Below are positions 61,215 through 62,998 of a stretch of DNA of 64,000 nucleotides, piece by piece. The position numbers and the translations under genes were made by a program. The notes beneath the pieces were generated by a model. That model was not told the origin of the DNA, ran no database searches, and saw nothing but the letters and a program-made list of their open reading frames with translations. Source of the DNA: an uncultured Alphaproteobacteria bacterium (lineage in GTDB: Bacteria; Pseudomonadota; Alphaproteobacteria; UBA6615); assembly GCA_943787745.1 (NCBI GenBank), contig CALSNJ010000002.1, positions 1 through 64,000 of the forward strand, written 5' to 3'. How positions within the stretch are numbered: the first letter of the stretch is position 1; every line of letters begins with the position of its first letter.

Positions 61215-62369
61215 CTAGCCGTCGATTTCGACCAGCCGGACCTTGCCATGTCCGGCACCCAGCGCGATCTCACCATGCTTGAGACGCAGCGCATCATCAC
61301 CAAAGATTTCCCGCCGCCAGCCTTGCAGGGCAGCAACATCGGCATTGTCATCGGCGGCAATCGCTTCGAGTTCGGCCACGGTGGCGACAAGCTTTTGGGC
61401 GACGTCATGAGTGTCGCATTTGAATTTGAGCAGGACTTTCAGCAAATCCATCAGCGGTCCGGCTCCCGGTGGCAATTCCACCAGCGGCGGTAGAACGGGC
61501 GCGTCGCCTTCCGGCAGGTCGCGCCCGGCTTCGACCGCGTCCATCAGGCCGCGTCCCATCTTGCCGTCAACAAAGCCTTTGGGAATGCCGCGCACCCGTG
61601 ACAGGCTTTTTGCGTTTTCCGGTGGGCGGGCGGCGATCTGGGAAAGCACGTCATCGCGCAGGATGCGGTTGCGCGGCTGGTCGCGGGTCATTGCCTCACG
61701 GTCACGCCAAGCGGCGACAGCCTGCAGAACGGCCAGATAACGTGGCTGGGCCCGCTTGGGCTTGAGGCGACGCCAGGCTTCTTCGGGGCGGACTTCATAT
61801 TTTTCGGGATTGGCGAGCTTGACCATTTCCTGCTCGACCCAGGCGATACGTCCGTTCTCTTCGATCTGCGCGCGGAGCTTTTCATAGGCCACCCGCAGAT
61901 GGGTCACGTCGGCCATCGCGTATTCGAGCTGTGAATCAGATAGCGGGCGCGCCGACCAGTCGGTGAACCGGCTGCCCTTGTCGAGGCTGACCTTGGCGAG
62001 CTTTGAGATCAGCCCCTCATAGCCGATCTGGTCGCCGAACCCGGCCACCATGGCCGCGATCTGGGTGTCGAAGAGCGGCTGGGGTGTGACGCCGCCGAAA
62101 TGGTGGAAAATCTCGATGTCCTGAGAGGCCGCGTGCATCACCTTGAGCACGTCCTCATTGGCGATCAGATCGTAGAGCGGCTGCAGGTCAATCCCGTCGG
62201 CCAGCGGGTCGATAATGGCCTCGTCATCCGGTCCGGCCACCTGAATCAGGCACAGGATCGGCCAGAACGTGCTCTCGCGCATGAACTCGGTATCAACGGT
62301 GATGTATTCGGCGCTGGACAGCGCCTCGCAGAACGCGGCGAGAGCGCCGGAATTGGTGATGACTTTCAT
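61215..62369 (-). CDS. rnd: Ribonuclease D
   Basis: YITVDTEFMRESTFWPILCLIQVAG, VMHAASQDIEIFHHFGG, DWSARPLSDSQLEYAMADVTHL, HRDC-like region. Confidence 0.96.
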   Translation of the reverse strand: MKVITNSGALAAFCEALSSAEYITVDTEFMRESTFWPILCLIQVAGPDDEAIIDPLADGIDLQPLYDLIANEDVLKVMHAASQDIEIFHHFGGVTPQPLFDTQIAAMVAGFGDQIGYEGLISKLAKVSLDKGSRFTDWSARPLSDSQLEYAMADVTHLRVAYEKLRAQIEENGRIAWVEQEMVKLANPEKYEVRPEEAWRRLKPKRAQPRYLAVLQAVAAWRDREAMTRDQPRNRILRDDVLSQIAARPPENAKSLSRVRGIPKGFVDGKMGRGLMDAVEAGRDLPEGDAPVLPPLVELPPGAGPLMDLLKVLLKFKCDTHDVAQKLVATVAELEAIAADDNADVAALQGWRREIFGDDALRLKHGEIALGAGHGKVRLVEIDG

Positions 62370-62451
62370 GGGCCGCGTTTCTACAGGAAATCATTCGGGG
62401 CGGGAAGGCATGTCCAAATGGCGGGGATCGCCAGAACAACATTTGTCTAAT

Positions 62452-62486
62452 CCGTCATGCCCGCACTTGTTGCGGACATCCACGTG
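62452..62486. repeat. REP-like hairpin, left of the GIY-YIG ORF
   Basis: ccgtcatgcccgcacttgttgcggacatccacgtg; reverse complement is 30/35 identical to 62834-62868; ATGYCCGCA/TGCGGRCAT stem. Confidence 0.85.
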
Positions 62487-62528
62487 TTCGACCATGCATG
62501 ATGAAAACAGGAGACGCACGCAGCCCGA

Positions 62529-62816
62529 ATGTCTGGCAGCTGGGTGTACATCATGACGAATAAGCCCAACGGCACGCTGTATGTCGGCGTGACGTCCGAT
62601 ATTGCCCGTCGAGCATGGGAGCATCGTGAGAGCGTTGTCGAAGGGTTCACCAGGAAGTACGGCTTGAAACGACTGGTTTATGTCGAATCACATGACGATA
62701 TTACTGCGGCCATCCAGCGGGAAAAGACCATTAAGCATTGGCCGCGTGCGTGGCGCGTAAATCTCATCCTCGAACGGAACCCGGATTGGAACGACCTCTA
62801 CGACACGCTGATATAG
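62529..62816 (+). CDS. GIY-YIG superfamily nuclease (stand-alone, 95 aa)
   Basis: VYIMTNKPNGTLYVGVTSDIARRAWEHRESVVEGFTRKYGLKRLVYVESHDDITAAIQREKTIKHWPRAWRVNLI. Confidence 0.92.
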   Translation: MSGSWVYIMTNKPNGTLYVGVTSDIARRAWEHRESVVEGFTRKYGLKRLVYVESHDDITAAIQREKTIKHWPRAWRVNLILERNPDWNDLYDTLI

Positions 62817-62833
62817 AGGCGTGTCGCCAATAC

Positions 62834-62868
62834 GACGTGGATGGCCGGAACAAGTCCGGCCATGACGG
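62834..62868. repeat. REP-like hairpin, right of the GIY-YIG ORF, inverted relative to the left copy
   Basis: gacgtggATGGCCGGAacaagTCCGGCCATgacgg: 9-bp perfect stem, 5-nt loop. Confidence 0.88.
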
Positions 62869-62998
62869 CTTTGGAGTAAATGTGTTGTTGCCGGTGTCGA
62901 CACTGGTGATTTGCGGAAGCCTTGACACACGCACGCGTTCCATGGCCATTGGCCAACGCTCCTTCATGTTGAAATTCCAATAGATTCCGAGACCGACC

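Follow-up and report, generated by a model that had tools for sequence, protein, structure and literature searches.

A short reading frame between rnd and aspS, in an uncultured alphaproteobacterium, raises the question of whether a nuclease of the GIY-YIG superfamily can be tied to a family of hairpin repeats as RAYT transposases are tied to REPs and REPINs. The preliminary description of the window (the whole 64,000-nucleotide stretch that was analysed) had reported a lone 95-aa GIY-YIG ORF bracketed by two copies of one hairpin in opposite orientations, and had proposed a small insertion unit. Here we consider the anatomy of this locus, the flanks of homologous genes, the alleles found in relatives and the company that the repeats keep across genomes.

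The locus and its hairpin family

Both the ORF and its bracketing hairpins were confirmed (Table 1). PF01541 is the sole Pfam match of the ORF (54.1 bits, E 1.9e-14), and the inverted repeats at 62449-62485 and 62835-62871 agree at 86% over 37 nt. The hairpins of this ORF-bearing unit face inward, with starts 382 bp apart; in the left copy the CGTC tag faces outward and the CCA tail faces the ORF. Each has a 9-bp stem and a CTTGT loop (read on its own strand for the right copy), though the left hairpin is the less stable of the two (folding energies of -6.7 versus -11.4 kcal/mol). Stem covariation had been claimed for CCGCA/TGCGG against CCGGA/TCCGG, and the change is indeed compensated, but its two differences amount to one base pair (C-G versus G-C), and the left stem also carries one uncompensated C.A mismatch where the right stem has none. 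As stable stem-loops in intergenic DNA, the hairpins could simply end transcripts or stabilise mRNA for rnd, aspS and the ORF and have nothing to do with mobility; given the symmetric inward orientation around the ORF, the copying of the sequence across loci and the tie between hairpin copy number and the gene (below), we regard this as extremely improbable.

Table 1. Features of the rnd-aspS locus, in window coordinates
Feature	Position	Strand	Detail
rnd, neighbour gene	61215-62369	-	
Whole hairpin-to-hairpin unit, ~415 bp	62453..62867	.	Homology with other-locus copies ends here
Left CGTC-type REP hairpin	62453..62484	+	CGTC-ATGCCCGCA-CTTGT-TGCGGACAT-CCACG
Spacer, left hairpin to ORF	62485..62528	+	Within unit conserved at other genus loci
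GIY-YIG nuclease ORF, 95 aa, intact	62529..62816	+	Pfam PF01541
Right CGTC-type REP hairpin, inverted	62836..62867	-	CGTC-ATGGCCGGA-CTTGT-TCCGGCCAT-CCACG
aspS, neighbour gene	from 62999	+	

The hairpin is not private to the rnd-aspS locus; it belongs to a genome-wide family of 34 copies (at most 3 mismatches; 17 per strand) in the 3.27-Mb genome, where a reversed control pattern has none. Most of this family consists of REPIN-like inverted pairs, about 12 in number, with start positions separated by 55 or 69 bp. Among 23 distinct copies in the genome, both sides changed in 4 of 9 stem pairs while 97% of stem cells remained paired, and the resulting covariation score (0.250, versus 0.089 in shuffles) was reached by none of 500 shuffles, with all slid controls lower; chance is thereby ruled out as its source.

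In form these repeats are CGTC-tagged REPs, which occur mostly in Alphaproteobacteria, are paired as inverted dimers and are defined by an 8-9 bp stem starting AT, a 4-5 nt loop and a CCA tail (Di Nocera, De Gregorio and Rocco, 2013; PMC3733652). Specifically, the window's family shares with them the tag, an AT-initiated 9-bp stem, a 5-nt loop, the CCA tail, multiple copies and inverted pairing. CGTC REPs were described as elements that “apparently lack a dedicated transposase,” being without transposase-gene association, and GIY is nowhere mentioned in that survey (PMC3733652); our data, by contrast, connect them with a GIY-YIG gene.

Pairing of gene and hairpins across homologues and genomes

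If the nuclease and the hairpins belong together, homologues elsewhere should carry inverted repeats of their own. Our main set held 147 alphaproteobacterial homologues (mostly 46-100% identity) from family and class searches; for each, the 250-bp flanks of the gene were compared in inverted orientation and the highest-scoring match was kept. A flank score of at least 20 was reached by 58.5% of them and by 0 of 3,984 displaced control positions at the same loci; at a score of at least 16 the figures were 71% and 0.5%. In a named set of 77 loci that partly overlaps the first (including Bradyrhizobium, Rhodopseudomonas, Parvibaculum, Ancylobacter, sphingomonads and Nitrosospira), 74% had matching flanks versus 0 of 449 controls, and outside the class but within the phylum, 7 of 13 loci did so versus 0 of 168 controls. 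Thus the gene is usually hairpin-flanked rather than found alone, with about 30-40% of homologues showing no clear flank-to-flank repeat under the score test. In the GIY unit of G224 (L134), the hairpin is 80 bp long and nearly identical on both sides, with a second palindrome inside the REP loop.

As the displaced controls are mostly coding, flanks were also swapped among GIY loci. The match between a gene's own left and right flanks (58.5%) fell to 11% when one flank was taken from a different GIY gene in that genome and to 3.7% when it came from another genome, and in 66 of 84 multi-copy cases no flank matched better than the gene's own partner. Own-flank matches so far above swapped ones indicate that each gene owns its hairpin pair, and the pairing of gene and hairpins is almost certainly private. 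Further, loop type mapped on the GIY protein tree requires 16 changes, as compared with a mean of 22.7 and a minimum of 19 in 200 shuffles of the labels. A REP-rich neighbourhood alone is ruled out by the same-genome and cross-genome swaps. The gene could still be a passenger of REP-rich intergenic regions that gather small genes, with no functional tie to the hairpins, and in relatives the rnd-aspS and gatB intergenic regions do hold unrelated inverted repeats; however, private left-right matching, the empty tally among the 3,984 control positions, a loop type that follows the GIY tree and homology that ends at the hairpins (see below) leave this explanation very little room.

Hairpin abundance and gene presence are associated at the genome level. 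Among 386 genomes, at least 5 copies of two REP patterns were present in 52% of GIY-positive and 10% of GIY-negative genomes (OR 9.5, p 6e-19). Of the 43 families that contain both kinds of genome, 29 showed more REPs in their GIY-positive genomes and 10 showed fewer (p 0.003). The kind of repeat follows as well: where typed flanks are all CTTG-loop, the REPs of the genome are mostly CTTG (23 versus 5), and in CGNARG-flank genomes they are mostly CGNARG (15 versus 1). These genome-level correlations partly reflect shared ancestry, an effect that stratifying by family and comparing loci within one genome lessen without eliminating.

The preliminary description had asked whether hairpin copy number tracks the gene and had counted equal abundance in relatives lacking it as contrary evidence. 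On average the two go together, but individual genomes depart from the rule. Eighteen genomes hold at least 10 REPs yet have no GIY match at E 1e-10; a profile search recovered a homologue in 5 of these and none in 13, a yield no higher than among REP-poor controls (6 of 18). With 13 of the 18 still negative by profile, strict copy-number tracking was not found, and REPs can persist after the gene is lost or be driven by something else. Six genomes with 50-160 CGTC REPs in which a GIY homologue was not detected (G246, G289, G220, G253, G319 and G376) may have lost the gene recently or may have such a driver.

One candidate for another driver is a RAYT-type HUH transposase that moves the hairpins while the GIY-YIG gene hitch-hikes within a REPIN. 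The layout of the short pairs is REPIN-like (starts spaced by 55 or 69 bp), and RAYT-type genes occur in 80 of the 386 class genomes. Yet the window's own genome has no match to the Y1/RAYT transposase (PF01797), REP counts among GIY-positive genomes are alike with or without RAYT (51% vs 53%), and no CGTC REP was found flanking a tyrosine transposase gene by Di Nocera et al. (2013; PMC3733652). RAYT as the driver was rejected on the first two of these grounds, and we consider the hitch-hiking scenario very unlikely.

The unit at different loci and its empty and ORF-less alleles

Within the window's genus, a unit of ~415 bp is found at three loci, i.e., rnd-aspS, gatB and a third. It lies at rnd-aspS in G000 and G007 (in the latter with a stop codon within the ORF), and a related unit is present at two other loci in G006 (85% protein identity) and G003 (83%). 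DNA homology among the genus units, which measure 413-422 bp, stops at the hairpins; the spacer lies within the conserved stretch, homology with L036 and L037 beginning at -76 and -78 from the ORF.

Relatives also provide alleles that lack the unit or its gene. At gatB, G003 carries the unit, G000 and G007 carry a hairpin pair that lacks the ORF, and G004, G005 and G019 have an empty site. At rnd-aspS, G006 keeps both hairpins around an internally deleted ORF whose junction fits a short repeat (TGGCG), G004 retains the left hairpin and the first ORF bases, and in G017, G018 and G019 the intergenic region is short and lacks the unit. The discrete unit at differing loci, together with empty sites, is what is expected of an insertion sequence or MITE, and in this respect the proposal of a small insertion unit held. 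The empty gatB sites are too diverged for a junction or target-site duplication to be read. The inner ends of the short hairpin pairs are closer to the unit ends than shuffled ones are, though this signal is weak.

On these sequence comparisons, the unit very probably is, or once was, mobile. The genus copies differ by ~25% in nucleotides, and among 24 aligned within-genome paralogue pairs no recent duplicates were seen (best 78.5% identity). Because no near-identical copies within a genome were seen, the movement may lie in the past.

The intergenic region between gatB and a transporter gene (L288, L289, L290, L291, L293, L294, L300) is a repeated landing site whose contents vary by relative, being empty in some and occupied in others by a hairpin pair, by a GIY unit or by a distant GIY gene; in G022 it is the last of these, with CCTCATNCTGAG palindromes. 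The rnd-aspS intergenic regions of G020 and G023 (L189, L192) contain a different inverted repeat, GGGCGGGTTTnnAAACCCGCCC.

The nuclease, its proposed action and known systems

The ORF has the domain and the catalytic Tyr, Tyr, Arg and Glu of the GIY-YIG superfamily. Y7, R28, H32, E65 and N84 are invariant among 26 homologues, Y18 is conserved in at least 90% of them, and all six are present in the window's ORF. As the protein comprises these catalytic residues and almost nothing else, recognition must lie within ~95 residues, which probably read the hairpin itself. dN/dS between unit copies is 0.03-0.14; by this measure purifying selection acts on the ORF, even as the unit occupies differing places. 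No match was found between the ORF and anti-phage defence families, and a single-sequence AlphaFold model was of low confidence (pLDDT 63) and was left out of the interpretation. A second GIY-YIG copy of the genome (G000:C5:237570-237836; L032), at 48% identity, is bracketed by an inverted palindrome of another sequence (GTCATTGCGAG...GCAATCCAG) and has Cys in place of the YIG tyrosine; it may be dead.

GIY-YIG enzymes cleave DNA by metal-dependent hydrolysis, and no strand-transfer step is known among them, such that movement of the unit would need host repair. We lean toward reading the locus as one copy of a hairpin-ended unit that encodes a nuclease specific for the unit's hairpins and that moves, or once moved, through cutting and host repair. 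The protein would bind the hairpin on exposed single-stranded DNA (e.g., on the lagging strand or in repair or uptake intermediates) and cut beside the stem, whereupon host repair and replication might produce a copy of the hairpin-bounded segment at another site or re-insert it there; internal deletion of the ORF would then leave the short inverted hairpin pairs, REPIN- or MITE-like, that persist as most of the family. We infer single-strand recognition (by analogy with RAYTs and with the Ssn nucleases), the position of the cut, and cutting as the cause of spread. That the nuclease acts on its hairpins is highly likely; whether it also causes their spread is an evenly balanced call.

The Ssn family (site-specific single-stranded nuclease), described by Chenal, Veyrier and colleagues in 2025 (Nat Commun), reportedly consists of GIY-YIG ssDNA nucleases paired with cognate repeats, the repeat being present in hundreds of copies in Neisseria, with thousands of homologues that have sequences of their own. 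By that account the likeness is a GIY-YIG nuclease with its cognate repeat, while Ssn is reportedly cast as a modulator of transformation rather than as a mobile unit. Neisseria Ssn was sought through DNA uptake sequences in the phylum-wide loci, and none was found. On an Ssn-like reading, the nuclease here would recognise its hairpins as a host or selfish ssDNA cutter, modulating (for example) uptake or recombination by cutting at repeats that spread otherwise. Cutting of ssDNA at a many-copy repeat with an effect on transformation, as reported for Ssn, would fit, as would purifying selection on the ORF, a chemistry that alone transposes no DNA, and REP-rich genomes without the gene. However, gene and hairpins form a unit at different loci, and the short pairs resemble ORF-deleted units (though the similarity of their ends is weak); we judge the non-mobilising cutter rather unlikely, and retain the hairpin-ended, nuclease-recognised unit as our reading.

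Homing endonucleases of the I-TevI type share the catalytic domain, and residues 4-35 of the ORF weakly match intron and phage homing endonuclease models. The ORF, however, is intergenic and repeat-flanked, with no DNA-binding tail, intron or intein; homing endonucleases interrupt their own target, whereas this ORF is flanked by its putative target.

The nuclease is the best candidate for a driver of CGTC REPs, a widespread class of repeats, and is found alongside them throughout Alphaproteobacteria and also outside the class. We tentatively suggest that this GIY-YIG family supplies the missing dedicated mobilisers of these REPs, and with them a second, chemically unrelated class of REPtron, in which a hydrolytic nuclease acting on single strands would take the place of an HUH transposase in spreading the hairpins and the derivatives without an ORF. 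If the nuclease does spread REPs, then REP-type elements evolved at least 2 times in bacteria, with unrelated enzymes; even if it merely cuts, a gene lying between copies of its putative target offers a catalogue of nuclease-target pairs. Should the Ssn work already cover flanking repeats in Alphaproteobacteria, the CGTC link, the signs of the unit's mobility and its ORF-less derivatives would stay new.

The closest parallel is with the RAYT, REPtron and REPIN systems (Nunvar, 2010, PMC2817692; Bertels and Rainey, 2011, PMC3116915), of which the locus had been proposed as a possible GIY-YIG counterpart. That earlier interpretation proved largely correct for anatomy, association and a unit at several loci, and strict tracking between hairpins and gene was not found. 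In both systems, a single small nuclease ORF sits between two inverted REPs, further copies of which occur in the genome, short inverted pairs occur as non-autonomous relatives, and REP and enzyme vary together between lineages. The difference lies in the enzyme and the tag: RAYTs are HUH tyrosine transposases (Y1_Tnp, PF01797) associated with GTAG, whereas the window's ORF matches PF01541 only and its hairpins bear CGTC, and the chemistry of transposition would differ accordingly between the two.
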